Below are positions 9,820 through 48,949 of a stretch of 64,000 nucleotides of DNA, in pieces (position 1 is the first letter of the stretch; every line of letters begins with the position of its first letter). The notes beneath the pieces are model-generated. The model was not told the origin of the DNA. It saw only the letters and a list, made by a program, of their open reading frames with translations, and ran no database searches. The stretch is from Weissella fangxianensis (GTDB lineage: Bacteria; Bacillota; Bacilli; Lactobacillales; Lactobacillaceae), in the NCBI RefSeq assembly GCF_024718545.1, contig NZ_JAMXDB010000001.1, forward strand, positions 62,001 through 126,000, in the 5' to 3' direction. The translations under genes were made by a program, and so were the position numbers.

Positions 9820-10653
9820 ATGGGTGAACAATTAAAATATTTAACTGTACCTGAGGTGCAGAAAATCATGTTGGCTATTCTAGCTGACATGATTAAATAT
9901 TTTAATGAACATAATTACCATTATGTCTTAACGGGTGGCAGTGCCTTAGGGGCGGTCCGTCATCAAGGATTTATTCCTTGGGATGATGACGCCGATGTGG
10001 CATTGCCGAGAGATGAATACGAACAGTTTATTCGTGACTATCGACCATATAATTCACAGTATGAATTGTTGACTCCGTACAATACTGAGAATTGGCTATA
10101 TGCGTATGCGCGTGTGAGTGATACGCAAACGCAAGCAGACGGTAAATGGGCATTGGTTCATAATGGTGTTTATGTGGATGTTTTTCCGATTGATGCGGTA
10201 CCAAAATCCAAAGTCGGTCAAAAGATAGCGTATTATCAGATGAAATATCTCGATGTAATGCGGAATTCTACCCGGCGGATTGCTATTTCAAAACAGGAAC
10301 CCGGCTGGTGGTTGAAACCACTGCTTATTAAATATGCGCAACGGCATCCGACGGGGTGGTGGGTGCAACGCATGGATAAGTTAGCGCAAAAGATGAATCA
10401 ACGCCATGTTGCGCGTTCAGATATCTATAGTTTGTACATTGTCCAGGGATTGAATAAAACAAGGGAAAATTTTCCACTAGCTGTTTATCAACAACGACAG
10501 TCAGTCCCGTTTGAAGATTTAACTGTTTATATACCGGCAGATAGCCAATCTTACCTCACCCAGATGTATGGTGATTGGCGAGCTTTGCCACCGAAAAAGA
10601 AACAAAAAACGCATGCCCGTTTTTATAATAAAGGAGTAGAAGTACATGATTAG
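9820..10653 (+). CDS. LicD-family phosphotransferase
   Basis: LicD proteins transfer phosphocholine or similar phospho-substituents onto teichoic acids or surface glycans. The family core GGSALGAVRHQGFIPWDDD is at about residues 39-57, with the metal-binding acidic cluster D55-D57 and D59, and KKKQKTH near the C-terminus; 277 residues is normal. It is probably the first gene of the teichoic-acid operon and overlaps the next gene by eight bases. No choline uptake or CDP-choline genes (licA-C) are in the window, so the donor is unknown; a decorating role on the TagF-made polymer is inferred from context. Confidence 0.9.
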   Translation: MGEQLKYLTVPEVQKIMLAILADMIKYFNEHNYHYVLTGGSALGAVRHQGFIPWDDDADVALPRDEYEQFIRDYRPYNSQYELLTPYNTENWLYAYARVSDTQTQADGKWALVHNGVYVDVFPIDAVPKSKVGQKIAYYQMKYLDVMRNSTRRIAISKQEPGWWLKPLLIKYAQRHPTGWWVQRMDKLAQKMNQRHVARSDIYSLYIVQGLNKTRENFPLAVYQQRQSVPFEDLTVYIPADSQSYLTQMYGDWRALPPKKKQKTHARFYNKGVEVHD

Positions 10654-11503
10654 TTTATACATACTACTCATCGCTAGTGTTGTCGCCATTTTTGGGTTGT
10701 TTGTGACTATTTTTGCCCGCGTTAAGAAGATTGATCGTTCTAAGAGAATGGGGCATTTTTTCCTGACATTTGGGATAATCGTTGCCTTATTTGCCGGCTT
10801 TTCAATTAATAAAGAAAAAGAGGCACATCAAGCAGCCCAAGATCACCAAAAGAAAGTTCAAGCAGAACAAATTTATGATGCCGAACTGGTTCATTTGAGT
10901 GATAAAAAAGTGAAAATCAAAGATGGTAAAGCCAAGGTGACGATTCACGTGTCTAAGAATACAGCCGTGAAAGTATCTAGTAATCATGAACAGCTCCATG
11001 ATTTAAACTACAAACCTAATAAAAGTAAAAAAGATATCAAGGTGACTTTTGTGATGCCGGGTAAGTATACGGTTAAGGCAACACGTGGTCAAAACAAAAT
11101 CACGAAGCATATTACGGTTCAAAAGGATGACCAAAAAAATGTCAGTGAATCAACGAGTACTTCGACTAGTGAAGAAGCAATTGTTGAGCCATCCAGTGAA
11201 GTTGTTGAAGAACCAGCTGTGACTGAAGAAACGAGTACTGAAGAGGCAATTGATCCAGGATTGACTGAAGATAGTGCAGAAACTGATACTGCCGAAGCTG
11301 AAGTGGCACCATCTTATGATGAGACACCAAACTATACGCCAACTTGGACGCCGGATACTCCTGCAGATACGCCGGCTAGTGACACTGGTGGGGCGGCAAC
11401 CGATACAGGTGCCGCTGATACTGGTACACAAGGTAGTGAAGCATCAGATGATGCGGCCGGTACAGAAGACTCAGTTGTTGATGATGGTAGCGCAGTACAA
11501 TGA
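10646..11503 (+). CDS. membrane protein with Ig-like region and acidic Ser/Thr tail, unknown
   Basis: This 285-residue protein was not recognised. There are two N-terminal membrane segments (about residues 3-25 and 36-54). A Lys-rich beta-sandwich-like extracellular region follows (about 75-160, ending in a MPGKYTVKAT block like small Ig-like modules), then a ~120-residue Ser/Thr/Glu/Asp/Ala-rich tail. The start codon overlaps the LicD 3' end and has AAGGAG at 10631-10636. Its place between licD and tagH suggests an accessory part of teichoic-acid assembly or export at the membrane, but nothing in the sequence proves it. Confidence 0.72.
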   Translation: MISLYILLIASVVAIFGLFVTIFARVKKIDRSKRMGHFFLTFGIIVALFAGFSINKEKEAHQAAQDHQKKVQAEQIYDAELVHLSDKKVKIKDGKAKVTIHVSKNTAVKVSSNHEQLHDLNYKPNKSKKDIKVTFVMPGKYTVKATRGQNKITKHITVQKDDQKNVSESTSTSTSEEAIVEPSSEVVEEPAVTEETSTEEAIDPGLTEDSAETDTAEAEVAPSYDETPNYTPTWTPDTPADTPASDTGGAATDTGAADTGTQGSEASDDAAGTEDSVVDDGSAVQ

Positions 11504-11518
11504 AGATAGGTTAGAAAA

Positions 11519-12799
11519 ATGGTTGAAAAAAAAGTAACCGTTGCAGCAAATCATGTGACGAAGCGATTTGATTTAGCTGAACGACAATCAGATAAAGTAA
11601 AAGCTGTCTTCAAATTTTGGGGTAAAGGTATTCCTAACTTTTGGGCAGTCAAAGGTGTGTCCTTTGAAGCACATGCAGGTGAAACCATTGGGGTGATTGG
11701 GACCAATGGATCAGGTAAATCAACCTTACTAGAAATGGTAGCGGGATTGACCCAACCAACCAGTGGACAAATGACGATTAATGGGTCAACTTCAATTATT
11801 GCGATTGGGGCGGGGATGCGACCAAAATTAACTGGACGCGCCAATATTCGTTTAAAGGCCTTGATGCAAGGAATGACGGAAAAAGAAATTGAAGCCAAGA
11901 TGGATGACATCATCGAGTTTTCTGAACTAGGTGACTTTATTGACCAACCGGTTAAATCATATTCATCTGGTATGAAATCCAAGCTAGGCTTTGCTATTTC
12001 AGTCTATTCCGATGCTGATATCGTCATTATTGACGAGGCCCTCTCTGTGGGTGATCCGACATTTACGCAAAAATCAATGGAACGTACAAAACGCTTTAAA
12101 GAAGAGGGTAAAACCATCTTTTTCGTGTCGCATTCCGCAGCGCAAATGCGTCAAATGGCGGACCGCGTGATTTGGATGCACTATGGTGATATCCGGATGG
12201 ATGGTCCAATTGATGAAGTGATGCCGGAATATGATCGTTTCTTAAAGCATTTCAATCGTTTTTCAGAAAATGAGCGATTGGCCTATCAGAAGCGGTATAA
12301 GGAAGCACAAAAAACATTTACGCTAGGACATTTAAAGCAATTGGAACGTAATCGACAAATGTTATTGGATCCATCAACGGCTTTGAAACGACAAAAAGAA
12401 GATGAACACTCCTTTACTGAGGGCAGCGAGAAAATGGGATGGTTCACTCGTGTCTTTTTGATTGTCATTACAATATTGACGGTGGGGTTGATGAATAAGC
12501 AATTGTTAAACATGTCATGGGCCAATGTGGCAGCGCACCCGACCCATTTGATTACAAATTTTGCACCATCAAAGTTGGCTCAGTTAAACCAGCGCCATGG
12601 ACGTATCGGTACCACTAATCCTGCTGAAACACCTGTTTACTCGGCAACGCAAAATACGTATACGGTAAAAGATGGTGAAACATTGGTCGGAATTGCTGAA
12701 AAAGCAAACATTTCGGTCACTGCCATTATGGAAGCTAATCAGATGATGGACCAAGTGGTTAATCCTGGGCAAGAAATTATTTTGCCGGTTGAGAGGTAG
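11519..12799 (+). CDS. tagH: teichoic-acid ABC exporter ATPase with C-terminal LysM (TagH-like)
   Basis: This is the ATP-binding subunit of the wall teichoic acid exporter. Walker A GTNGSGKS is at 61-68, the ABC signature YSSGMKSKL near 148-156, and Walker B DIVIIDEA from 167. After the ATPase come a linker, one membrane segment near 308-330, and a LysM domain at about 380-424 (YTVKDGETLVGIAE to NPGQEIILP). In B. subtilis TagH also carries an extracytoplasmic tail; here the tail ends in a peptidoglycan-binding LysM, which could hold the exporter at the wall. It is followed by tagG after a 5-base gap. Confidence 0.93.
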   Translation: MVEKKVTVAANHVTKRFDLAERQSDKVKAVFKFWGKGIPNFWAVKGVSFEAHAGETIGVIGTNGSGKSTLLEMVAGLTQPTSGQMTINGSTSIIAIGAGMRPKLTGRANIRLKALMQGMTEKEIEAKMDDIIEFSELGDFIDQPVKSYSSGMKSKLGFAISVYSDADIVIIDEALSVGDPTFTQKSMERTKRFKEEGKTIFFVSHSAAQMRQMADRVIWMHYGDIRMDGPIDEVMPEYDRFLKHFNRFSENERLAYQKRYKEAQKTFTLGHLKQLERNRQMLLDPSTALKRQKEDEHSFTEGSEKMGWFTRVFLIVITILTVGLMNKQLLNMSWANVAAHPTHLITNFAPSKLAQLNQRHGRIGTTNPAETPVYSATQNTYTVKDGETLVGIAEKANISVTAIMEANQMMDQVVNPGQEIILPVER

Positions 12800-12804
12800 T
12801 TATT

Positions 12805-13629
12805 GTGAAAGATATTTTGAAAATTTTTAAGGAATTAGTAAAGAGTTGGCCAGTGGTGCAACGAATTGCTCGTTACAATAATGATCAAACTTACCGGGAA
12901 AATTATTTGGGTGATTTTTGGCATTTTGCAGACCCAGCATTGCAAATTGGTATCATGATTTTGATGTTTGCGGTTCGTAATGGTAGTGACAATGGTAATC
13001 CTCACGCTACTGGTTTAGCAGGGTATATTGCTTGGATTGCCTTAGGAATGGTCACTTACTTCTTTATGCAAGCGGCTATGCAAAAGTCGGCAAAGAGTAT
13101 TCAATCACAAATTAATATGTTATCTCGTATGAAATTTTCTTTGTCCGCTATTCCAATGACGGAAATTATTACCGAGTTACGGCGTTACTTTGTCATGCTA
13201 GGTATGGCATTTTTCGCCATCTTGTTTATGAATGTTAAACCATCGATTTATTGGTTACAATTCTTTTATTACTTTTTTGCGATGATGATTTTCTTGTATG
13301 CATTATCGTTAGTGACTTCAACAATTACCGTGTTAGTACCAGACTTTTATAATGCCTATACAGCAGTCTTACGTGTAGGAATGTGGGTTTCGGGTGTGAT
13401 TATTCCAGTGGATAGTCCCAAGTTCCCACTGTTGTTGTCAAATATATTGAAATTAAATCCATTGTATTACATTATTCAAGGATTTAGAGAAACGCTTTTG
13501 GAGAACCCGGTCTGGTTTTGGCATAACATAACAGCGAATCTGTTGTTCTGGGGGATTGTGATTATTCTCCTCACGGTCGGTGCACATATCCATATGCGTT
13601 TCCGTAATCGTTTCATGGACTTTGTATAA
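12805..13629 (+). CDS. tagG: teichoic-acid ABC exporter permease (TagG-like)
   Basis: This ABC-2 type integral membrane permease has 274 residues and about six hydrophobic segments (from ~40, 75, 130, 160, 190 and 245). It starts with the family-typical cytoplasmic amphipathic stretch ending NYLGDFWHFADP. With TagH it flips undecaprenyl-linked teichoic acid to the outside. The start is a GTG at 12805 with GAGAGG upstream inside the end of tagH, so the two are translationally coupled. Confidence 0.93.
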   Translation: MKDILKIFKELVKSWPVVQRIARYNNDQTYRENYLGDFWHFADPALQIGIMILMFAVRNGSDNGNPHATGLAGYIAWIALGMVTYFFMQAAMQKSAKSIQSQINMLSRMKFSLSAIPMTEIITELRRYFVMLGMAFFAILFMNVKPSIYWLQFFYYFFAMMIFLYALSLVTSTITVLVPDFYNAYTAVLRVGMWVSGVIIPVDSPKFPLLLSNILKLNPLYYIIQGFRETLLENPVWFWHNITANLLFWGIVIILLTVGAHIHMRFRNRFMDFV

Positions 13630-14096: not shown

Positions 14097-14834
14097 ATGA
14101 GTAATCAAGTAAAAATCATTATCGATAAGTTAGGCACTGCTGAAGTGACAACGATTAAACATTACATGACTAATTTACGTCAGCTTATTGGCTCTGATTT
14201 CACGTTGACGATTTTAGATCCACGGTATAAAGGTGACTATAACCAGTTGATTAATGAGTATGAAAAGCTTTCGGGCGAATTCCCTAACATAAAGATTGAA
14301 AGTTTCTACGTGTCACAGTATTTGAAGAGCAATCAACGTGATAATGTCAACCAATTTACACAGGACTATATTGGTAATCAAAAGTTTACTGTTAAAAAGA
14401 AAGATGGCCAACGTCTTTTTATGCAAGATGGTGAAGTGCGAATTGCTATTATCAACAACAAAGCTGGCAAAGTAACTGCAGTTGATTTTGCTAAGCCAGG
14501 TCAAAAGAAACCACATCAACGTGTCTCGGTGAATACCTCTGGTAACATTCAGGTGTTGCGTCATTTTGATGATAAAACTCATTTGCCAGTCGTTGATGAA
14601 TATTTGGATACAGACTTAAATACACAGCTAGTTGTTCACTTTGATGAACGTGGTTTACGAGCAGATTACCAACTAGTTGGGTGGAATGAACCAGTTGTAT
14701 ATAGTGAGGTTGATTTATATGAACAATGGTTTGGTCGTGTGATTGCACCAGACAATTATGTAATTAATATGAATCGCCACTATGATGTGTTATTTGAACA
14801 TCAGCATGACGTGACTAAAGTTTTTCTAATGTAA
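14097..14834 (+). CDS. stand-alone N-terminal-domain-like protein of TagE/Gtf-type transferases
   Basis: This 245-residue soluble protein has no signal peptide and no GT4 catalytic motifs. The pattern of short beta-hairpins (residues ~100-200, alternating charged/hydrophobic strands with HFDDKT and HFDERG turns) and the final WFGRVIAPDNYVIN block look like the N-terminal beta-domain that precedes the catalytic part in poly-glycerol-phosphate glucosyltransferases and adhesin-modifying Gtf proteins. It ends where catalysis would begin, and the next gene is a GT4 fusion, so it may be a non-catalytic partner. Homology is inferred by eye. GAGGG precedes the ATG. Confidence 0.55.
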   Translation: MSNQVKIIIDKLGTAEVTTIKHYMTNLRQLIGSDFTLTILDPRYKGDYNQLINEYEKLSGEFPNIKIESFYVSQYLKSNQRDNVNQFTQDYIGNQKFTVKKKDGQRLFMQDGEVRIAIINNKAGKVTAVDFAKPGQKKPHQRVSVNTSGNIQVLRHFDDKTHLPVVDEYLDTDLNTQLVVHFDERGLRADYQLVGWNEPVVYSEVDLYEQWFGRVIAPDNYVINMNRHYDVLFEHQHDVTKVFLM

Positions 14835-14853
14835 TGATTGGGTGGCATTTGAG

Positions 14854-17800
14854 ATGGATTTGAAAAAAAAAGCAAAACGTGTAGCACATATTTCAGAAGT
14901 CGCCATGACCTATCGATACTCTGATTTGAAAAAAACACGTGAATATTATATACGTCATTATGATCAGGCAATGGTTGATGAACAGGTTGTTCTGTACGAG
15001 ACTCGTGATGGGCAATCAATGACGGATTCACCGCTAGCAATTTTTCGTTATTTGAGTTCCCATGCGCAATATCAATATCTGCAACATGTGTGGGTGGTAA
15101 CAGATGATAGTCAAGAAAATCTAGCAAAAATGGTTGCAAATATACCGACTGATATGCAGTCGCAGATTATTTGGGTTAAGCGTAATACCATAGCATATGC
15201 TAAATGGTTATTAAAGGCTAAGTTTCTTGTGACCAATTCAACGTTCCAGTCATTCTGGCATAAGAAACCAGAGCAAGTCTATTTAAATACATGGCATGGT
15301 ACGCCATTGAAATATATGGGTTATGATATTCCCGGTTCAAAGACATCCTTAAAAAATGTGCAACGTAATTTATTAATGGCTGACTATATTATTTCACCAA
15401 ACGCGCATACATCACATGTGTTTTTAGACCGTTATAAGTTAAATGGCTTGTACCAAGGTGAAGTTCTTGAAGGTGGTTATCCGCGCATTGACTTAACCTA
15501 TGCTCACGAGCAAAAAAATACCTTGGCATACTTACAGCAAAGTGGTGTGCAACTAGACTTAACGCAGCCAATCGTTATGTACACACCAACTTGGAAGGGG
15601 ACATCGATTACCAACCCTTCAGGTAGTATTAACCAAATTTATGAAGAGATTAAGCGATTAAAACAGTTAAACCCTGATAAAAATATCCTGGTTAAAGTAC
15701 ATCCATACGCTTATCCGTTGGCCAAACGTCATGAAGGTTTACGTCCATATTTAGTTTCTGATGAAGTGGATGCTAACTTGATTTTAGGGATTACGGATAT
15801 CTTAATTACTGATTATTCAAGTATTTTCTTTGACTATTTAGTAACCAATAAACCAGTTATTTTTTATGCTTGGGATCATGAACTATACAGTAGTTATCGT
15901 GGTATGTATTTTGATGATAATGAGTTACCTGGTCCAATTTTAGATGATATTGAAACCGTGGGTCATGCATTACAGCATACTGACCAAATTAGTGAACGGT
16001 ATCATGGTAAATATCAGCAACTTAAAGAAAAGATTGTGTCTTATGATGACGGTCAAGTCACTGCCCGTATCGTTCAAACAGTCTTTAATCAGCAATCAGT
16101 ACCAGGCATAAAGCATGTCCAAGCGAGTGGTTTGAATAAGACAAAATTGCTGATTTATCCTGGCGGTATGGGAAATAATGGGATTACGACCAGTGCCATC
16201 AACTTAAGCCAAAATATTGATTATGATAAATATGATGTGACGTATTTATTGTGGGATAACGATAACGAAGAAATTATTAATAATGTCGCGCAATTAGATG
16301 AGCATGTACGTGTTATGTATCGCTTTGGTGTTACTGCCTTAACCCGTCCAGAACACCGACAAGATCGCTATATTAGTGAACATGGTATCAAACAGTGGTC
16401 TGATACCAATATTCCGAAAGCTGGGTACAAACGTGAAGCAGATCGATTATTTAATAGTGTGCAATTTGATACATTAATTGATTTTTCTGGCTACTCATTT
16501 AATGGTTTGAAGTTGTTTGTGGTGATGTCCAGAAAACAACTAGTTGTTTATCAACATAATGATTTGTATGTTGATTCGCAAAAGGTGATTAACGGTAAGC
16601 AAGTTCATGCTAAGAAGTTGGGGGCATTGTTCACGCTCTATCAAGTTTTCGATAAAATTGTTTCTGTTTCGGAAACCTTAAAGCAAATTAATGAGAAAAA
16701 GTTATCAAAATACGTCCGTCCAGAACAAATGGCAGCTGTCCCAAACTCATTGACATTACCTACGGCAGCCGATGAACAAATGCATGATTTGCCTGTGATT
16801 GAAGATTACCAAGCAGCTGCAAACATGCGTGTACAAGATACTGAGATGTATATGTCTTTGGCAGATATCGCGCAGGATAATCACATTATTAAAACAGTGA
16901 ATGATGACGATCATATTCGTATTCTTGGTCGTGCCCGCATTAATCAGCGGACATTTTATAAGCTTGCAATTAATGATTTGCCAAGTGGTTGGGTCACTGC
17001 AAAGGCGATTGATGTTCATGAAGTCAATGAATTATTGTACCAAGAACCAGTACATCAAATTGGCTGGGTGTACAACAATAAACGACGTCTGTTCCAAACA
17101 CCTTATTTAAAGGGGAATGACGCGAATGATGTGATTGGTCAGGCAAAATGGTTAAACCATACTTTTGTAAAAATTGTTGCGCAAGCTGAAACAGGGGACG
17201 GTCGTTATTATCAGGTACAGTTACCAAAAAATCAGCAATTAGCTTGGTTAAAGGCATCAAGTATCTTGCCAATGCAGTATTCATCACGTTTTGCCTTTTA
17301 TCAATGGTTATGGAATCGTCTATCTAATAAAGTTACTGAACAAGTATATAATGTTGGTGTCAAACAGCTATTTACGATTGATCATGAAGTTATCTTGACT
17401 AACCAACCCTTAGGATTGAGCAAACGTGGTATTAAACAAAGACCATTGAAGACAGTCAATAAACTTTATTTAGCAACTGCGTTTGCGAAAACAATGACGG
17501 GTAATTATTTCAGAGTAAAAGTTGGTCAAAAACAGTGGTGGATCGCTGAACAGGATATGAATAAACAGTCTATTGATATGTTACTGACGAACAACTATCA
17601 CGTCAGTTTGAATGACTATCTAGATGTACCTGTTAACCGAGCATTAATCTTTAACCATACTAGTGAGCAAATGATTCGTTCACAGTTTAATGCATTACCA
17701 AATGATTTGGTAATTACTGATGGTTATCGAACTGTTCAGTTAGTGAATAATCAACCAGTTTATCAATTATATTCTGAAAAATTTGATGAATCGGTGATGG

Positions 17801-18843
17801 TACCAGTAAATGAAGTATTTGTACTAGACACGACGCACTTTGACGAGGTTTATACGGTCAGCCATGACACTATTGTTGATTATCAAGTGATGCTTCTAAG
17901 TCAGGAGTTGCAAAAGTTAGCAGTAAAAGACCACATTGTTGAATTAGCGCGGGTATGGAATTGGCAAACTGAATCATTTGTGATTTATGGCCAGTTTGAT
18001 AATCAGTATGGTTGGTTTGATGAATCGGTATTAACCAATGAATATGTGGCACCACTGTCTGTACAAGAAAAGTTGCTACCTGATGAACAATCTGGCGTTA
18101 AGTTAGTGGCAGATGTGTTGCCGGTTGATGAGATTCAACCAGTTGATCAGATTAATAAACCATGGATTACAAGAAAAATTTCTGTATGGGATGGTGATAA
18201 ACATTACACACAGTTGACTCGACAAAATGGACAAACTATTTTGCTAGCCGATACAGGTGATGCAATATTAGCTGCGGATGCACAACATGCATTTTCAGAC
18301 TCTTTGTTGTACCAAAATGGTCGTCAGTGGGCAACTTATAATCATTTCGTTTTTGTCGCTGTTGGCCGTTTATCACCTGAAAAAAACCAAACGATGCTAT
18401 TAGATGCTTTTGCAAAGATTTATGCCAAACATCCGGAAGCCGAATTAATCATTATTGGTGATGGTGTTAGTCGTAACGAATTAGAAAATAAAGCTGTAGA
18501 ACTGGGCATTGCCAATGTTGTCCTATTTACTGGTCAAATTGATAATCCTGCGGATTATTTGGCACTGGCCGATGTTTTCGTACATCCGTCACTGTATGAG
18601 GGTCAGCCGATGGTCTTGTTGGAAGCCTTAATGCAGCAACGGTTAATTGTGGCAACTAATATTGCTGCGAATGTGGGTGTGATAGGTAACCAAAAATACG
18701 GTTTGGTAACGCAGGATGTGGCCGCAACCTCATTTGCGCAATTAATGTTGTTTACTATGGAAGAACAAACTAAATTAGAAAAATTTGATATTAACAGTTA
18801 CCAAGAGCAAGCGCGCCAAGCGTTTAATGCTATACTTAAATAA
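14854..18843 (+). CDS. TagF-type polymerase fused to a GT4 glycosyltransferase split by SH3b/GW-like modules
   Basis: This 1329-residue protein has no signal peptide. Residues ~30-410 are a CDP-glycerol glycerophosphotransferase with WHGTP at 147-151 and DYSS at 320-323. From ~430 (LLIYPGGMGNNG) a GT4 N-terminal Rossmann half begins, reaching ~635. Residues ~640-1160 are a beta-rich insertion of several SH3b/GW-like modules (GWVTAKAI, AWLKASSI, WWIAEQDM, GWFDESVL). The GT4 C-terminal half resumes with VGRLSPEKN at ~1167 and the EX7E pair E1249/E1257. It probably extends and glycosylates the polymer in the cytoplasm. The start is uncertain: GTG 14842 is in frame, but ATG 14854 has GGGTGG at better spacing. 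TagD follows. Confidence 0.85.
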   Translation: MDLKKKAKRVAHISEVAMTYRYSDLKKTREYYIRHYDQAMVDEQVVLYETRDGQSMTDSPLAIFRYLSSHAQYQYLQHVWVVTDDSQENLAKMVANIPTDMQSQIIWVKRNTIAYAKWLLKAKFLVTNSTFQSFWHKKPEQVYLNTWHGTPLKYMGYDIPGSKTSLKNVQRNLLMADYIISPNAHTSHVFLDRYKLNGLYQGEVLEGGYPRIDLTYAHEQKNTLAYLQQSGVQLDLTQPIVMYTPTWKGTSITNPSGSINQIYEEIKRLKQLNPDKNILVKVHPYAYPLAKRHEGLRPYLVSDEVDANLILGITDILITDYSSIFFDYLVTNKPVIFYAWDHELYSSYRGMYFDDNELPGPILDDIETVGHALQHTDQISERYHGKYQQLKEKIVSYDDGQVTARIVQTVFNQQSVPGIKHVQASGLNKTKLLIYPGGMGNNGITTSAINLSQNIDYDKYDVTYLLWDNDNEEIINNVAQLDEHVRVMYRFGVTALTRPEHRQDRYISEHGIKQWSDTNIPKAGYKREADRLFNSVQFDTLIDFSGYSFNGLKLFVVMSRKQLVVYQHNDLYVDSQKVINGKQVHAKKLGALFTLYQVFDKIVSVSETLKQINEKKLSKYVRPEQMAAVPNSLTLPTAADEQMHDLPVIEDYQAAANMRVQDTEMYMSLADIAQDNHIIKTVNDDDHIRILGRARINQRTFYKLAINDLPSGWVTAKAIDVHEVNELLYQEPVHQIGWVYNNKRRLFQTPYLKGNDANDVIGQAKWLNHTFVKIVAQAETGDGRYYQVQLPKNQQLAWLKASSILPMQYSSRFAFYQWLWNRLSNKVTEQVYNVGVKQLFTIDHEVILTNQPLGLSKRGIKQRPLKTVNKLYLATAFAKTMTGNYFRVKVGQKQWWIAEQDMNKQSIDMLLTNNYHVSLNDYLDVPVNRALIFNHTSEQMIRSQFNALPNDLVITDGYRTVQLVNNQPVYQLYSEKFDESVMVPVNEVFVLDTTHFDEVYTVSHDTIVDYQVMLLSQELQKLAVKDHIVELARVWNWQTESFVIYGQFDNQYGWFDESVLTNEYVAPLSVQEKLLPDEQSGVKLVADVLPVDEIQPVDQINKPWITRKISVWDGDKHYTQLTRQNGQTILLADTGDAILAADAQHAFSDSLLYQNGRQWATYNHFVFVAVGRLSPEKNQTMLLDAFAKIYAKHPEAELIIIGDGVSRNELENKAVELGIANVVLFTGQIDNPADYLALADVFVHPSLYEGQPMVLLEALMQQRLIVATNIAANVGVIGNQKYGLVTQDVAATSFAQLMLFTMEEQTKLEKFDINSYQEQARQAFNAILK

Positions 18844-18868: not shown

Positions 18869-19315
18869 ATGAAGAGAATTATTACTTACGGAACATTTGA
18901 CATGTTGCACTACGGTCACATCAATCTATTGCGTCGGGCAAAGCAATTAGGTGACTATTTAATTGTTGTGCTGTCATCAGATGAATTTAATTGGGATTCA
19001 AAGCAAAAGAAAACGTATTTTTCTTACGAAAAGCGTAAGCAATTACTAGAGGCTATTCGCTATGTTGACCTGGTCATTCCTGAGAATAGTTGGGATCAAA
19101 AAGTTTCTGATATGAAAGAATATCATGTCGATACGTTGGTTATGGGGGATGACTGGGCAGGTAAATTTGATTTTATTGAAGAACAAACAGATACAGAAGT
19201 TGTGTACTTACCACGTACCCCAGAAATTTCAACGTCACAGATTAAGAATGATTTAAACAAGAAAAAATTAGCAACAAGTGTTGATACATCATTGATTGAT
19301 GTATCGGGGAACTAG
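18869..19315 (+). CDS. tagD: glycerol-3-phosphate cytidylyltransferase
   Basis: TagD makes CDP-glycerol from CTP and glycerol-3-phosphate, the donor for all TagB/TagF-type enzymes in this window. GTFDMLHYGH at 8-17 carries the HxGH nucleotide-binding site (H14, H17), and RTPEISTSQI is the second family signature. The length of 148 is slightly longer than the Bacillus enzyme. AGAGGAG precedes the ATG, 25 bases after the fused polymerase gene, which fits one operon. Confidence 0.97.
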   Translation: MKRIITYGTFDMLHYGHINLLRRAKQLGDYLIVVLSSDEFNWDSKQKKTYFSYEKRKQLLEAIRYVDLVIPENSWDQKVSDMKEYHVDTLVMGDDWAGKFDFIEEQTDTEVVYLPRTPEISTSQIKNDLNKKKLATSVDTSLIDVSGN

Positions 19316-20593: not shown

Positions 20594-21028
20594 ATGAAAT
20601 TTTTGAATGAACAAGGGCAAGAAATTTCGCTTAAGCGAGCAGAAAATTTGCCAGGTTATGAAGTGACATTAGCAGAAGATACTGTTATTGATTCAGCAGT
20701 AAATAATCCTTTTTTTAAAGGTATTAATGTTTTACAGTTACCAAAAAAGTTAAAAGGATTTAGGGATAACTCAGAGTTGAAAACATTATTAGCTCCGCAA
20801 AAATTAAACTCTGGATTGAAAATTATTTTAAAAGAAGATGAATGTGCAATTTTTGAACCTGCTAAAGATTTGTCTCTTAATAAGCGACTGATTTTAGTTG
20901 ACCGTATTTTTGGTGGGAACCAAGTTGTTCAGCCAATGTTTATAAATTTTGGACTTAAAAATATAAAGATGAGTTCAGGTACAGTCATTGGGACTATTCT
21001 AATCCAAAAAAATAATATTGAATTGTAA
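20594..21028 (+). CDS. small protein of unknown function
   Basis: This 144-residue soluble protein was not recognised. It is mostly beta-strand-like, with a repeated LPK/LKG turn pattern in the middle, and has no membrane segment or cysteine motif. The ATG at 20594 is preferred over 20579 because GGAG lies nine bases before it. It sits between the SGNH hydrolase and a glycosyltransferase and belongs to the AT-rich segment. Its first 60 residues pair DNS- and FKG-like motifs as in leucine-rich or cupin-like folds, but no assignment is made. Confidence 0.65.
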   Translation: MKFLNEQGQEISLKRAENLPGYEVTLAEDTVIDSAVNNPFFKGINVLQLPKKLKGFRDNSELKTLLAPQKLNSGLKIILKEDECAIFEPAKDLSLNKRLILVDRIFGGNQVVQPMFINFGLKNIKMSSGTVIGTILIQKNNIEL

Positions 21029-21050
21029 TATTAGAAAGCGGAGTAAAGTG

Positions 21051-23495
21051 ATGAAAGTTGAACAAATTAAAAAAATGGTACCTAAGCCAATAAAAAAAGT
21101 TATTAAGGGTACATTAAAAAAAGAAAACTTAACTGTCGATAATGAAAAAAATTTGTCTGTAGTAAATGATAGTGTTAATGCTAAAAACTTAGATAGTACA
21201 GAGACGGAATACAAGAAACTTGTAGAAGAGAAAAAAAGTAAGCGAAAAAACAATAAAAATTTCGATATTAGGGCTACATATGTTGAGTATTTTAGAAAGC
21301 CTTTAAAAAATCAGATTATTGTTATTGGAAGTAATGGAGGGAGCTTCTCTGGAACAGTAATATCTAAATTTGCAGAAATTATTAATAGTCAGGAAATGGA
21401 TGTTTTCGTTGCTTTAGATAAATTGACTGATCCATTTCCATATAAGAAAGTAAAAACAGTAAAAAAATACAGTGTTGATTTTGTAAAAGTATTAGCACAA
21501 TCTAAAGTGATTTTGACTCAGGGTACATTACCATACTATTTTCAAAAACGTGAAGGACAAGATGTTGTTAATACTCTGGATGAGATTACTGAACAAATTG
21601 AAAGTGTGTCATGGCCATTAGATATATCAGGTGTTAGACTACAACATTCAGTTCTTCAATCAACTGAATTAATAGCCCTACCAGGTGTTGATGTCAGGGA
21701 GATACTTCGTGTTCTTGGTATAGAAAGAATATATCAAGGAAACGTAGTTGAAAACTATAATATGAAGAAACATTTTGAGAATAATATTCAAAAGAAAAGT
21801 GAAAAATTCCCTTTAAAGGTTCCGTATGCTATAAAGAAATATAAAAAAAGTAATTCTACCTTAAGTATTATTCTGGTTCATTTGGAAAAGCTGGAAAGCT
21901 TAGATATAGTTAATACTCTAAAAAATATTATTGGTCAAAAAGAAAATAATCAAACTAATAACTTAATTTTAGTAGATGTCGCGCCTTATATTCATAAGCA
22001 GTTGTATAAGGACGAATTCCTGCAAGAATATATGATTGGTATAAATAGAAACATAGAACCATATATGGGAAATGTTACAGAGTTATATACAGATAGTTTA
22101 GAGTACTCTAGCTTTTTTACTAATATCAAAGTAAACCTATTAAATCATGTGCAGGATGAATCTTATTCAATAACTCCCTCTGAGCCTCTTAAAATTATAG
22201 AAAAAAGTTTTAATATTACCAATGATAGACAAAATATTTTAATGTACGGTGGAGGATTTTATAACAATGGTATTACGTCATCTGTCTTGAATTTATCGAA
22301 TTATATAGATTATCAAAAATATAATTTGATTATAATTGAAAAGGGTGAATTTAAAGGTTCAGATTATGATAATATACAAAGATTAAGTCCTATGACAACA
22401 GTGATCCAGCGTTTTGGAGTAAGTGTATTTGATGAAAAAGAGCAAGCGCTTCACGAATTAATTACGTTAAAATCTGGTTATGAAAATTGGATGAAAAAAT
22501 TGAACCCGTTTAACCAATATAGTAGAGAAGTCAAGAGAATGACAGGAATGAATGATTTTGATTATGCTATTGATTTTGGTGGTTATAGTAGTTATTATGA
22601 AGCACTTATTTTGTCTGTGAAAGCAAGAAAACATTCTATTTTCTTGCATAATGATATGTGGGAAGAAACAAAAAGGTTCGTTGACGGTAAGTTTATAATG
22701 CATGACACACTTATACGAATCTTTAAACTATATCAATTTTTTGATCGATATGTAAGCGTATCTGAAGAGGTAATGAAGCAAAATCAAGAAAAACTTGTTG
22801 AATATACCAATAGTGGGAATTTTTTTACAGTTAATAACTTGATTAATAAAACAGATATTCAAATAAAACAATCTGCTGATAATATTGAAGCAGTTCAAAT
22901 TTGGAAAGAAAATTATTATATAATACGGGATACTGAAAATAGTAAAAGTATTGAATCAGGCACATTTTTAGCTCCATCTAATCAAAAATTTACTTTTGTT
23001 ATGGCGGGGAGATTATCCCCTGAAAAGGGTCATAAAAAAATGATAGACGCGGTCAAGTATGTAAAACAACATACTGGTGCGAATTTTGAAATATTAATTT
23101 TAGGTGAAGGACCATTAAAAGATGAGTTAAATAAGTACCGATTGATACAAGGAGTAGGAGAAATTGTTAAATTTGTGGGACAAGTACCTAATCCGTACTA
23201 TTATTTTAAGCATGCAGATGCATTTTTAATGACTTCAGATCATGAGGGACAACCTATGGTGCTTCTCGAAGCTGCTTCGATGGGGGTACCAATACTTGCT
23301 ACTGATATACCTGGGAATAGGAGTGTGGTTTCGAAGGTTGGTGGTAAGTTAGTGGATAATACTGTAGAAGAACTACAAGAAGCGATGAAGACCACTATTG
23401 AACATCCACTACAATTACAAAAACCAGAATTTAATATTGATAGTTATAATGAATTAGTGTACCACGTGCTTGAAAAAACAGTTCTAGGGGAGTAA
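21051..23495 (+). CDS. GT4 glycosyltransferase with degenerate TagF-like N-terminal domain
   Basis: This 814-residue protein is a relative of the fused polymerase at 14854. The C-terminal half is an uninterrupted GT4 enzyme from LMYGGGFYNNG (~395) through AGRLSPEKG (~653) to the EX7E pair E732/E740. The N-terminal ~90-270 resembles the first domain of a TagF transferase (VILTQGTLPYYFQKREGQ matches the usual lead-in to the active site), but the WHGTP and DYSS motifs are missing, so it cannot be a working glycerophosphotransferase. The start at 21051 follows GCGGAG; the frame is open from 21018. It is probably a teichoic-acid glycosyltransferase. Confidence 0.8.
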   Translation: MKVEQIKKMVPKPIKKVIKGTLKKENLTVDNEKNLSVVNDSVNAKNLDSTETEYKKLVEEKKSKRKNNKNFDIRATYVEYFRKPLKNQIIVIGSNGGSFSGTVISKFAEIINSQEMDVFVALDKLTDPFPYKKVKTVKKYSVDFVKVLAQSKVILTQGTLPYYFQKREGQDVVNTLDEITEQIESVSWPLDISGVRLQHSVLQSTELIALPGVDVREILRVLGIERIYQGNVVENYNMKKHFENNIQKKSEKFPLKVPYAIKKYKKSNSTLSIILVHLEKLESLDIVNTLKNIIGQKENNQTNNLILVDVAPYIHKQLYKDEFLQEYMIGINRNIEPYMGNVTELYTDSLEYSSFFTNIKVNLLNHVQDESYSITPSEPLKIIEKSFNITNDRQNILMYGGGFYNNGITSSVLNLSNYIDYQKYNLIIIEKGEFKGSDYDNIQRLSPMTTVIQRFGVSVFDEKEQALHELITLKSGYENWMKKLNPFNQYSREVKRMTGMNDFDYAIDFGGYSSYYEALILSVKARKHSIFLHNDMWEETKRFVDGKFIMHDTLIRIFKLYQFFDRYVSVSEEVMKQNQEKLVEYTNSGNFFTVNNLINKTDIQIKQSADNIEAVQIWKENYYIIRDTENSKSIESGTFLAPSNQKFTFVMAGRLSPEKGHKKMIDAVKYVKQHTGANFEILILGEGPLKDELNKYRLIQGVGEIVKFVGQVPNPYYYFKHADAFLMTSDHEGQPMVLLEAASMGVPILATDIPGNRSVVSKVGGKLVDNTVEELQEAMKTTIEHPLQLQKPEFNIDSYNELVYHVLEKTVLGE

Positions 23496-23498
23496 TAA

Positions 23499-25718
23499 AT
23501 GAGTGTTTTAGACAATTTTAATATAGAGTTAAGAAAACAATTTATACAAGCACATCAAATAGAAATTGAAAAAAGGGCTAAATCTAATAAAAATTATAGA
23601 AGAATAAATGAATATAGTGAATATATATTCAGTAAAAGTCATCCTATCAAACAAAACGTTATAATGTATGATTCCTTTTTAGGTAAAAGTATGACTGATA
23701 ACCCATATGCAATTTTTTTAGAGATTTTAAAAAGAGATACGGAGCATAAGTATCATCATGTCTGGATTTTAGAAAATCCAGATAATTTTCAATCAAGGAG
23801 ATTTGCAGATCTAGATAATGTAGAATTTATTAGGCCATATACAAAAAAACACTTACAATACTTGGCTATAGCAAAATACTTGGTAATTAATACCTCAATG
23901 CCATATTATTTTGTGAAACGACCAGGGCAAATTATGATAAATATGTGGCATGGGACTCCTATTAAAGGTATGGGAAAGTACATGGGTGGAAGATTTGGTC
24001 AGTGGGCTAACGTTCAACGGCAGTTTTTAATGACAGACTATATGGTTCATCCTAATGTTTACACTCAAAATATTATGAATGATAGTTATGACTTAAATAA
24101 AATATATGAAGGTGTTCAACTAACTGTTGGGTATCCTAGAGTTGACTTAATTCAAAGTACTGATGTGTCAGTTTTCTCGAAATTTTTAAATACAGTTGTA
24201 CCAATTGACCCTAATAAAAAAATAGTGTTGTATGCACCTACTTGGCGAGGAAATCAAGAAAGTGTTGCGAATATGACGGAAGAATTTGTTCAAAATTCTT
24301 TAGCCATTCAAAGGTCTTTGCCAGAAGGTTATCAGTTGCTAGTTAAGGCGCACCAAATTGCTTATGATAAGGCTAAGTCAGATAATAGAATTAAAAATAT
24401 TTTAGTTCCAAATGATATAGATACGTCAGAATTATTGAGCATAACGGATGTTTTAATTTCAGACTATTCAAGTATTTTTTTTGATTTTCTTATAACTGGG
24501 AAACCAGTTTTCTTATACGCATATGACTTAGATTCATATATGGCCGACAGAGGGCTATTATTAGATATTAATTCCGTTCCAGGAAATGTTGTACTGACTA
24601 TAGAACAACTGTCGGAATCATTAAATAATTTAGATAATTATAAGATGAATAATAGTGAAAATGTTCATGATTATGTAGCATGGCAGAATGGTAAAGCGGC
24701 ATCATATATTATTGATGAATTGTTTGATGTGACAGAAAAAATAACAAATGAATATGAAGTGAAAATAGATAATGGTAAGAGTAACATTGTCATATATTTA
24801 GATGGATTTGAGGATGATGACTATTATTCTAAGGTTCAGTTCATAAATTCTTTAGTTGAAAATAATGATAATAATATTGTATTACTAACCAAAGACCATT
24901 TTAATGATGAGGAGCTATTGCAACTATCACAAATAAGAATCGCATATAGTCATATTTTTAGGTTAGGGCAGGTTAACTATTCAATTGATAACTATGTACC
25001 TTATTCTTTAGCTAATCAGGGTGATATGTCAATGTATGAGAAAGGTAGCGTTCAAAAAATATTTGAGGAAGAAATTCACAGAGTAGTACCGTTAGAAAAA
25101 ATTGATCAATTTATTTATCTAGGAAAAATGATGAATGTTTTTGAAAATAATTTATTTGCATTCGGTATGCATGCCAAAAAGAAAACATATGTTAAAACAA
25201 CTTCATTCTATAGTGATCAAAAAACACGTTTAGGTATATCTAAGAATGAATATATTAAAAAACATATTTTCCCGCAGTATTCCGAAGTTATCGATTTAAC
25301 TTCTATAAATAGTGAACCAATTTTAATTGGGGAAAATTTTTATTTACCGCTTGTGTTTAATAATGAATATGTGAGCGCTGTTAAAATAGAAAATGGAAAT
25401 AAATTATGTGTAATAGCGAATAATTTCCTAGATTTTGATGAAACATTTGGTATTTATAACTTACAACGTTTAGTTAATGAAAATTCATATGACGCGATTT
25501 ATATATATGGTGATGAAGAAAAGTTCAAAGATTATTTTGACGTAGAGAAAAATATATATTTGATTGATTCGAAAAAGACCAATTTAAAAAATATTTTGCC
25601 GCTTGTCTTAAATTGTTCAGAGTTAATGCTTGATGTGAAAACAATTAATAAAAACAATAAGTCATTTTATTCATATATAATAGAGAAAACAATAAATATT
25701 ACAGATATGAATGCTTAA
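23499..25718 (+). CDS. CDP-glycerol glycerophosphotransferase (TagF-type)
   Basis: This transferase adds glycerol-phosphate units from CDP-glycerol to a lipid-linked acceptor at the inner membrane face. WHGTP at 150-154, the APTWRG block near 247, LVKAH near 284 and DYSSIFFDF at 322-330 are the family's active-site motifs, all intact. Residues beyond ~430 form an additional ~300-residue domain, very AT-rich in codon use, which was not recognised. Its start lies three bases after the preceding stop. It lies in the AT-rich segment and is distinct from the polymerase domain of the 14854 fusion. Confidence 0.9.
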   Translation: MSVLDNFNIELRKQFIQAHQIEIEKRAKSNKNYRRINEYSEYIFSKSHPIKQNVIMYDSFLGKSMTDNPYAIFLEILKRDTEHKYHHVWILENPDNFQSRRFADLDNVEFIRPYTKKHLQYLAIAKYLVINTSMPYYFVKRPGQIMINMWHGTPIKGMGKYMGGRFGQWANVQRQFLMTDYMVHPNVYTQNIMNDSYDLNKIYEGVQLTVGYPRVDLIQSTDVSVFSKFLNTVVPIDPNKKIVLYAPTWRGNQESVANMTEEFVQNSLAIQRSLPEGYQLLVKAHQIAYDKAKSDNRIKNILVPNDIDTSELLSITDVLISDYSSIFFDFLITGKPVFLYAYDLDSYMADRGLLLDINSVPGNVVLTIEQLSESLNNLDNYKMNNSENVHDYVAWQNGKAASYIIDELFDVTEKITNEYEVKIDNGKSNIVIYLDGFEDDDYYSKVQFINSLVENNDNNIVLLTKDHFNDEELLQLSQIRIAYSHIFRLGQVNYSIDNYVPYSLANQGDMSMYEKGSVQKIFEEEIHRVVPLEKIDQFIYLGKMMNVFENNLFAFGMHAKKKTYVKTTSFYSDQKTRLGISKNEYIKKHIFPQYSEVIDLTSINSEPILIGENFYLPLVFNNEYVSAVKIENGNKLCVIANNFLDFDETFGIYNLQRLVNENSYDAIYIYGDEEKFKDYFDVEKNIYLIDSKKTNLKNILPLVLNCSELMLDVKTINKNNKSFYSYIIEKTINITDMNA

Positions 25719-40737: not shown

Positions 40738-41883
40738 ATGGGTCGAGCACAAAAAATTAAAAATCGTATCAAAAATTCATCCTTTTTTGGAGGTGCGTAC
40801 CTGATTACTGTCGGGGCTTTCGTTAAAATTCTACAATTATTTATTAGACCGAACGAAAAACAAATCTTGTTTATCTCTTATAGTGGTCGTCAATATTCAG
40901 ATACACCAAAAGAAGCCTATAATATGCTACGCAATGATCCGGCATTTAAGGACTATGAACTTGTCTGGGCAATGAATAAGCCAAAAATTTATGTGCAACC
41001 GGAACTAGGACGTAAAGTTTCATCTAATTCACCGACTTTTTTCTACCATTTGTTAAGGTCTAAATATTGGGTGGCGAATTCTAGTATTGATCGTTTAATT
41101 CCATTTAGTCATAAACGAAACATTTATATTCAATTTTGGCATGGTGTACCACTGAAAAGTTTAGGCCATGCCGAAATTGGATTATCTCGATTAGTGCAAT
41201 ATTGGTATGATCATGTACAATTTGATTTTATGTTTACATATGGTGACTATGACCTAGAAAAATTCAAAGAGGTCTTTCCAAAAACAAAAAGATTTGTGGA
41301 GCATGGTCAGTTACGTAAAAATATTGTGACGCGCTATCGAGAAAACATTACACCAGAACGTGTAAAATATCAGCTGGGTATTAAATCAGATAAACCAATC
41401 TTGCTTTATGTGCCAACTTTTAGAGGTTATCAAGCACGTGAACAGACGACATTAACACAAGCAACTTTAGAAAAATTATCTGAAACCTATACGGTAATTT
41501 ATCGGGGTCATTATTTTTCAGAGGCTGTTAAAAAAGGCAAAATCATTACGGCAGATAATTATTCATTGTATAAGTTATTTATGATTACTGATGTGTTGAT
41601 TACTGATTTTTCAAGTGTGTTCTTTGATTTTGCTGTCTATGGCAAGAAAATTTTTCTCTTTCAACCGGACTTTAATGAATATCATGTCCGACGAGGTGTT
41701 TATTTAGACGCCCAAGAAGATTTAGGATTACCTGTTGCATATTCTGAGTCAGAATTGATGAACCTATTACAAGCAGATGAGTATGATTATCAAGTGCTAG
41801 CAGATATCAGCCAACAGTATAATTCACATAGTGGTGAAGAAGCAGCAACTGCATTAAAGAGTATTTTGATGCATTTATCGTGA
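40738..41883 (+). CDS. CDP-glycerol glycerophosphotransferase family protein (TagB/TagF-like)
   Basis: This 381-residue single-domain enzyme matches the size of TagB-type primases rather than long TagF polymerases. It has FWHGVPLKSLG (W134, H135), YVPTFRGY near 221, RGHYF near 258 and DFSSVFFDF at 290-298. It would transfer one or more glycerol-phosphate units from CDP-glycerol at the inner face of the membrane. The linkage-unit gene tagA (a WecG-type transferase) was not found in the window. The SD is weak (GAGGG 12 bases before the ATG), which may limit expression. Confidence 0.88.
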   Translation: MGRAQKIKNRIKNSSFFGGAYLITVGAFVKILQLFIRPNEKQILFISYSGRQYSDTPKEAYNMLRNDPAFKDYELVWAMNKPKIYVQPELGRKVSSNSPTFFYHLLRSKYWVANSSIDRLIPFSHKRNIYIQFWHGVPLKSLGHAEIGLSRLVQYWYDHVQFDFMFTYGDYDLEKFKEVFPKTKRFVEHGQLRKNIVTRYRENITPERVKYQLGIKSDKPILLYVPTFRGYQAREQTTLTQATLEKLSETYTVIYRGHYFSEAVKKGKIITADNYSLYKLFMITDVLITDFSSVFFDFAVYGKKIFLFQPDFNEYHVRRGVYLDAQEDLGLPVAYSESELMNLLQADEYDYQVLADISQQYNSHSGEEAATALKSILMHLS

Positions 41884-48325: not shown

Positions 48326-48949
48326 GTGTCAGAAACCGGATACTTATTTACCAAACGATTTTTAGATATTTCTGTTTCACTATTCGCATTAATTATTTTA
48401 TCGCCAATTTTTTTGGTAGTATCAATATTCTATTTTTTTGGTGAGAATCGTGGACCTATTTTCTATCAACAAAAGCGAATTGGACAGAATCATCATGAGT
48501 TTGGTATTTATAAATTTCGCTCAATGGTAGTGGGAGCTGAGGAAAAGCTGTATGCCAACAAAGAACTTTATGAGAAATTTGTTGAAAATGGCTATAAATT
48601 ACCAACAGAAGAGGATCCTAGAATCACTAAATTTGGTGCATTTCTACGTAAAACTTCCATTGATGAATTACCCCAGTTTATAAACATTTTGAAGGGTGAA
48701 ATGAGTATTGTGGGACCACGTCCCGTGGTTGCTAAAGAATTGGTAGAATATGGTCAAGATGTTGACAAATTTTTATCAGTCAAACCAGGTGCAATGGGAC
48801 TTTGGCAAGCAAGTGGTCGAAGTGAAATTCAATATCCAGAACGCGCGCAACTAGAAATTGGCTATGTTGATCAAGCCGATTTGTGGTTCGATTTCAAAAT
48901 TTTATTTATGACAGTCATTGCGGTCTTTAGGGGAAAAGGCGCAATGTAA
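48326..48949 (+). CDS. priming sugar transferase (undecaprenyl-phosphate sugar phosphotransferase)
   Basis: This enzyme starts exopolysaccharide synthesis by moving a hexose-phosphate onto undecaprenyl-phosphate. The 207-residue length fits the EpsE/CpsE catalytic core with one N-terminal membrane segment (about 13-35). KRIGQNHHEFGIYKFRSM, DELPQFINILKGEMSIVGPRP and the closing GLWQASGRS block are family hallmarks. The start is a GTG at 48326, supported by AAGGAGGT. A terminator separates it from the chain-length gene. The sugar is probably galactose or glucose, but the sequence does not settle it. Confidence 0.92.
   Translation: MSETGYLFTKRFLDISVSLFALIILSPIFLVVSIFYFFGENRGPIFYQQKRIGQNHHEFGIYKFRSMVVGAEEKLYANKELYEKFVENGYKLPTEEDPRITKFGAFLRKTSIDELPQFINILKGEMSIVGPRPVVAKELVEYGQDVDKFLSVKPGAMGLWQASGRSEIQYPERAQLEIGYVDQADLWFDFKILFMTVIAVFRGKGAM

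Follow-up and report, generated by a model that had tools for sequence, protein, structure and literature searches.

The window analysed here, a stretch of 64,000 nucleotides from Weissella fangxianensis, carries a gene whose 1333-residue product joins a TagF-like CDP-glycerol glycerophosphotransferase domain to a glycosyltransferase of family GT4, with a long insert bearing GW modules lodged between the two halves of the latter. The gene, its parts and a paralogue are arranged as follows.

14842..18843, + strand: TagF-GT4 fusion with GW insert; GTG start, 1333 residues; relatives of 88-67% identity over the full length
14959..16089, + strand: TagF-like CDP-glycerol glycerophosphotransferase domain, residues 40-416; H152, P155 and H287 conserved
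16138..16746, + strand: N-terminal Rossmann half of GT4, residues ~433-635; aligns with PDB entry 8qoy up to chain residue 939
16750..18342, + strand: insert, residues 637-1167 (531 residues); the corresponding landmarks are 23-63 residues apart in uninserted relatives
18343..18840, + strand: C-terminal half of GT4, residues 1168-1333; contains R1176, K1181 and the EX7E glutamates E1253 and E1261
21018..23495, + strand: paralogue, an open reading frame (ORF) of 825 residues with a GT4 domain without insert; gap of ~50 residues

The first-pass annotation had opened the gene at 14854, where an in-frame ATG indeed lies (M5, giving 1329 residues); the ORF itself opens at GTG 14842, and the residue numbers of that annotation are ours minus 4. 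The fusion that it proposed is borne out by Pfam, in which PF04464 (TagF-like) matches residues 40-416 (1.8e-85) and PF00534 (GT4 C-terminal half) residues 1169-1321 (3e-31), and by the alignment to the closest solved protein, Cps3D of Actinobacillus pleuropneumoniae (8qoy, 3.1e-105), which has the identical domain order. This alignment falls into two blocks, query residues 33-625 with chain residues 372-939 and query residues 1162-1332 with chain residues 971-1139. The ~530 extra residues reported at the junction of the GT4 halves have no counterpart in it, and the short gap reported for the paralogue was recovered as well, the two GT4 matches of the latter stopping at residue 607 and restarting at 658.

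The insert begins just after N635, an invariant residue. In the Cps3D paper (PMC11666461) the GT4 halves are given as 747-947 and 948-1119; judged from R982 and K987, the 8qoy chain numbering runs 3 ahead of that of the paper, and chain residues 939-971 correspond to 936-968 there, spanning the boundary between the Rossmann halves at 947/948. The first-pass placement within the catalytic fold can be made more precise: the insert sits where the two Rossmann halves meet. Because the site falls at this boundary, the insert need not disrupt either half. The same insert occurs in five congeners at 88-67% identity, which argues against an assembly error. In agreement with the first-pass annotation, no signal peptide is evident from Kyte-Doolittle means over 19 residues, no signal-peptide program having been run, and no membrane segment either; the means peak at 1.28 for the entire protein and at -0.21 for its first 60 residues. 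No TPR domain was matched by Pfam across the 1333 residues, and this domain is not defining for every member of the Cps3D type.

Within the insert we distinguish the following elements, where HMM denotes the hidden Markov model of the module.

16846..17004, + strand: GW module 1, residues 669-721; HMM 2e-14; hhalign probability to module 2 of 93%; matched to 5jqc by insert profile A4
17041..17265, + strand: GW module 2, Pfam span 734-808; Pfam GW 1.2e-8; HMM 2e-16
17275..17349, + strand: residues ~812-836, a basic and aromatic stretch that follows module 2
17401..17550, + strand: GW module 3, residues 854-903; HMM 5e-13; hhalign probability to module 2 of 82%; the match to internalin B (InlB) reaches here
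17647..18321, + strand: unclassified part of the insert, residues 936-1160; marginally GW-like at ~1030-1063

The search of the insert with GW profiles placed PF13457 (GW) at residues 734-808 with 36 bits against a cut-off of 21 bits, the single Pfam stretch above cut-off, and the HMM supports three GW/SH3b modules well (669-721, 749-806 and 854-903). A sliding profile comparison gave modules 1-3 hhalign probabilities of 98-99%, with a profile that contains the window's own modules 1-3, and found residues ~1030-1063 marginal (19%); it returned nothing for residues 936-1020 and 1070-1165, and the best of 54 segments outside the insert reached 2.3%. The GW-like block of ~500 residues that had been described holds for residues ~655-910 only, the last ~230 residues being unclassified apart from the one marginal module. 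A first reading by eye of six modules was given up, as the sliding profile supports three of them, one marginally and the other two not at all. The insert profile also matches the GW structures of Lmo1076 (5jqc, 4e-24) and internalin B (1m9s, 3.9e-12). AlphaFold2 gave a mean predicted local distance difference test score (pLDDT) of 35.7 for residues 420-1333 (6 alignment rows), exceeding 70 only in parts of the GT4 C-terminal half, and of 37.4 for residues 936-1165 (3 alignment rows); the low values, which leave neither model usable for the insert, are probably due to the very few alignment rows. The SH3 fold of the modules is predicted from sequence profiles.

Is the insert a regular companion of the fusion? 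We aligned 37 proteins, the window protein included. The insert site spans 220-566 residues in 28 of them and 23-63 in the other nine, and the GW pair stands at the same place in all 28 inserted and in none of the nine uninserted proteins, by an HMM that was refined on these proteins. Pfam returned a GW match at E<=0.1 in all 27 inserts scanned (of the 28, the one from genome G686 was not in the set). Among proteins outside its training the HMM found GW in 5/5 fusions with ORFs of at least 1178 residues and in 0/15 others, namely 10 full-length fusions of 771-870 residues and 5 proteins of 911-1021 residues that are more distantly related. The insert is, in other words, a true, nested and variable insertion. 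Its named carriers are Weissella thailandensis (88%), W. sagaensis (78%), Enterococcus gallinarum, Enterococcus lactis and Peribacillus sp. R9-11, and public records label the proteins of Enterococcus and Peribacillus no further than as "CDP-glycerol glycerophosphotransferase family protein"; Staphylococcus nepalensis carries an uninserted fusion.

How many modules can be recognized depends on the carrier: two, three or four; the HMM finds four in Peribacillus and Enterococcus lactis and three in the window protein. In the Peribacillus protein (WP_201253995.1) Pfam, too, sees four GW stretches. This variation would suit a ruler, in which module number sets chain length. However, uninserted relatives exist, and divergent modules make the counts themselves uncertain. 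We regard a ruler as highly improbable, and the suggestion of the first-pass annotation that the insert measures length found no support.

A survey of the same architecture, which that annotation had put forward as a check, returned carriers at each taxonomic level. All genome counts are lower bounds, few candidates having been scored per genome. At least 10 of 397 genomes drawn from the family have the inserted form, and 395 genomes drawn from the order added 13 carriers in two other families. Among 398 genomes drawn from the class, a full-length match to the TagF-GT4N profile (E<=1e-180) was found in 16, of which by best match 6 are inserted (own genome included) and 10 uninserted, nine of these ten from one genus. 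Because 10 of the 16 are uninserted, a fused polymerase does not by itself require GW modules. Insert profile A2 proved too narrow, and its counts are likewise lower bounds: in the class draw it found the own genome only, missing G404, G411, G417 and G424 although the TagF-GT4N profile shows an insert there, and in the order draw 14 of its 28 matching genomes were matched via non-fusion proteins (13 in one genus, ORFs of 637-812 residues, and one of 446 residues). Of the 521 records of a plasmid search 20 were considered and four of these examined.

On a core tree of 42 chosen rows, some with long branches, the presence of the insert demands at least five changes, two of them forced by the starred branches. 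A single origin was discarded on this ground, losses and several gains both being possible. The insert appears to be old, and lost or gained more than once. Two variants of the architecture were seen. Three loci (L112 in genome G466, L104 in G533 and L118 in Enterococcus gallinarum) hold two insert-bearing fusions each, in E. gallinarum in tandem, an arrangement that would match a polymer built with two sugars. Uninserted relatives at L034 13170-17009, L041 7160-11449 and L040 5886-10256 carry N-terminal extensions of ~450-640 residues that gave no Pfam match at E<=0.01 and are possibly another chain-handling module.

Could the insert be a tolerated, mostly neutral addition to a permissive hinge loop? 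The uninserted form is common, and the insert evolves faster than the core. We compared the protein with those of W. thailandensis, W. sagaensis and two further congeners by the ratio of non-synonymous to synonymous substitutions (dN/dS), whose values are rough, with dS near saturation in several pairs: it is 0.09-0.12 in the GW part, 0.14-0.34 in the unclassified part and 0.03-0.09 in the catalytic parts. The insert is under selection, yet evolving faster than the enzyme core. Such purifying selection, strongest within the insert on its GW part, makes a neutral insertion very unlikely, as does the recurrence of the GW pair at one site across Weissella, Enterococcaceae, Bacillaceae and further families.

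The catalytic residues are intact. H152 and H287 of the TagF domain, R1176 and K1181 of GT4 and the EX7E glutamates E1253 and E1261 are invariant in all 37 rows; their roles are those given for Cps3D (PMC11666461). The paper on the Cps3D-type family names five motifs, and we checked residues from these rather than all five. The protein has the active-site histidines of the TagF-like/GT-B (Cps3D-type) family and the EX7E plus R/K signature of a retaining GT-B (GT4) enzyme. P155 aligns with P447 of TagF, a position reported to be kept in glycerol-phosphate transferases and to be glycine in ribitol enzymes (PMC10299916). On grounds of homology we take the protein for a polymerase that acts in the cytosol and makes a glycosylglycerol phosphate polymer.

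Three known systems bear on what the modules may do in such an enzyme. Cps3D shares the TagF-like and GT4 domains in the same order and the same catalytic residues, and makes a type-II-like glycosylglycerol phosphate polymer; it differs by an N-terminal TPR domain, by the lack of a GW insert and by belonging to a Gram-negative capsule pathway. It is described as a processive polymerase of a type-II-like polymer whose TPR domain serves processivity and acceptor use (PMC11666461). Bcs3 of Haemophilus influenzae type b unites a TagF-like domain and a polymer-binding SH3b within one polymerase. Its SH3b binds a capsule dimer 20-40 Å from the active sites, constructs with the SH3b disrupted are inactive, and a tether is proposed by its authors (PMC10299916). 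In contrast to the window protein, Bcs3 has a single SH3b near the C-terminus, a PRPP (phosphoribosyl pyrophosphate)-dependent ribosyltransferase and a phosphatase in place of GT4, and a ribitol phosphate product. The window protein consists of TagF, GW and GT4 only, with no PRPP ribosyltransferase, phosphatase or C-terminal SH3b. Homology of the GW modules with the Bcs3 SH3b was considered and dropped. Because the GW profile misses Bcs3 among PDB sequences, the parallel is a functional one and not demonstrated homology; by analogy, the enzyme may work like Bcs3 without being Bcs3-type. Listeria InlB and Lmo1076, finally, share the GW module family, by Pfam and by the profile matches to 1m9s and 5jqc. 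Both are surface proteins, whereas the host of the modules here is a biosynthetic enzyme with no evident signal peptide. GW modules are teichoic-acid-binding units of wall proteins (PMC7155027; PMC4944223), and it is galactosylated wall teichoic acid that keeps InlB on Listeria (PMC7155027).

Chain holding by the GW pair would be the simplest joint reading, by analogy, of the facts on Bcs3, Cps3D and InlB. The first-pass annotation had inferred an intracellular polymer-holding device; the occurrence of GW modules in a fusion that lacks an export signal and the parallel with the Bcs3 SH3b agree with it, and the holding itself we infer. We consider it fairly probable that the protein is a two-site, type II-like teichoic acid polymerase whose GW modules tether the nascent chain. 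In this mechanism the backbone would alternate glycerol phosphate and an alpha-linked sugar, as in type II-like teichoic acid. The TagF domain would transfer glycerol-3-phosphate from CDP-glycerol onto the chain end, and the GT4 domain would put a sugar on the glycerol just added, retaining the configuration. Seated at the GT4 hinge, the GW modules would grip the already made, glycosylated chain close to both active sites, and the chain end would shuttle between the TagF and GT4 sites, giving processive elongation. As for the basic stretch behind module 2, it may guide the anionic chain or else lie on the membrane close to the TagGH exporter.

This last element is kept as a lead only. The 55 residues after module 2 have a median charge of +5 in the 28 proteins versus -0.94 in control segments; no more than 14 of the 28 fall below the 5% level of their own control segments. 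A conserved amphipathic membrane helix at this place was rejected, the hydrophobic moment being extreme in some proteins and ordinary in others, whereas the positive charge is the more widespread feature.

The main rival is an insert that serves assembly or docking and binds no polymer, its partner being a further copy of the enzyme (oligomerization), TagGH, the membrane or another cytosolic protein. TarS of Staphylococcus aureus offers a precedent, a teichoic-acid glycosyltransferase with added carbohydrate-binding-type modules. It is not known to have a TagF domain. It differs further in that it decorates poly-ribitol phosphate and in that its modules build a trimerization domain, reported as stacked carbohydrate-binding modules (PMC5156392). 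The TPR domains of Cps3D, too, seem important for the dimer, though truncated forms still dimerized (PMC11666461), and the basic stretch behind module 2 points the same way. Against docking stand the known binding of teichoic acid by GW modules in wall proteins and the insert length of 220-566 residues, which is more in keeping with a flexible tether than with a fixed interface. We hold docking to be rather unlikely.

The neighbourhood of the polymerase gene contains further parts of a polymer pathway.

9820..10653, + strand: LicD-family phosphotransferase; PF04991 1.5e-39; kept in the 5 closest relatives
11519..12799, + strand: TagH-type teichoic acid export ATPase; PRK13545 1.1e-94 and PRK13546 5e-79, both below cut-offs
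12805..13629, + strand: TagG-type export permease; PF01061 3.4e-13; adjoins TagH
14097..14834, + strand: 245-residue protein directly upstream of the polymerase; 74-92% identity in 5 congeners
18869..19315, + strand: tagD, glycerol-3-phosphate cytidylyltransferase, which makes CDP-glycerol; TIGR01518 4.8e-63, 210.8 bits against a cut-off of 165.4

The polymerase gene is flanked by the TagGH-type exporter before it and tagD after it. At its C-terminus the TagH-type ATPase has a LysM domain (4.1e-11, residues 381-423). The 245-residue protein, which gave no Pfam match above cut-off, also occurs in one more distant genome (40%), conserved with the polymerase. Further TagF-like proteins are encoded in the window at 23499-25718 (739 residues, with a C-terminal part unnamed by Pfam) and 40738-41883 (381 residues, an enzyme of TarF size). 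Homologues of TagG, TagH or TagD occur in 16 of 25 insert-bearing loci, the window excluded, by BLASTP at E<=1e-10 over 55% of the query, a test in which some ATP-binding cassette ATPases could belong to other transporters. The E. gallinarum pair is preceded by a TagA-family enzyme and two more CDP-glycerol transferases, and the Peribacillus gene lies between galU and galE.

Does the gene serve another phosphopolymer, capsule-like or lipid-anchored, instead of wall teichoic acid? The own genome has no TagA-family match at E<=0.01 and no TagO-type match, the cluster contains a LicD-family gene, and there are two PF02397 enzymes in the genome, one of them in the window. On the other side stand the TagGH-type exporter beside the gene, the TagA-family enzyme and the two CDP-glycerol transferases beside the E. 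gallinarum pair, and two LytR-CpsA-Psr proteins in the own genome. We judge another polymer unlikely.

Several observations speak against a teichoic acid polymerase with a GW tether. The insert is missing from the larger part of the fusion-bearing genomes of the class draw, and G404, an inserted genome, has a second copy of 830 residues, too short for an insert. Half of the insert is unclassified, both AlphaFold2 models have a mean pLDDT below 38, and the GW profile, as said, finds no Bcs3 chain. Nine of the 25 insert loci are without TagG, TagH or TagD nearby, including all three named Enterococcus and Peribacillus loci. The missing TagA match also counts here, and the single PF00953 protein of the own genome looks like MraY, not TagO, because the ORF that precedes it resembles, by eye, a penicillin-binding protein. 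The start and anchor of the polymer probably depart from the standard. Enzymatic activity, the sugar and its linkage, polymer structure, the ligand of the modules, chain binding and processivity are, moreover, all predictions from sequence.

Either initiation proceeds by a route other than TagO/TagA, or these genes are absent from the assembly, whose completeness is 99.94%. The LicD-family protein is a candidate priming or transition enzyme, and together with the two PF02397 enzymes a candidate for initiation. A non-standard start looks likely for this teichoic-acid-like polymer, the sites in the window being 9820-10653, 10646-11503 and 48326-48949.

TagF/GT-B polymerases, SH3b tethering in a polymerase and GW modules in wall proteins were each known separately. 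Among the matches listed in the PubMed Central literature, with subscription papers, preprints and supplements outside it, no paper reported GW modules in a teichoic-acid polymerase. The Bcs3 paper of 2023 states that polymerases for complex wall teichoic acids had not been identified (PMC10299916), and the Cps3D paper of 2024 calls the pathways of type II-IV wall teichoic acids uncharacterized (PMC11666461). We propose tentatively, and at less than even odds, that the inserted fusions are the missing polymerases of Gram-positive wall teichoic acids with sugar in the backbone (type II-like), and that their cytosolic GW array is a processivity clamp that recognizes its own product. Enterococcus, Peribacillus and Weissella now offer named candidate polymerases, whose product and GW-dependent processivity are directly testable. 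If the clamp exists, module number and sequence would follow the polymer of each species, and the modules could yield specific binders for such polymers. GW modules would then shift from wall anchor to clamp of the nascent chain.

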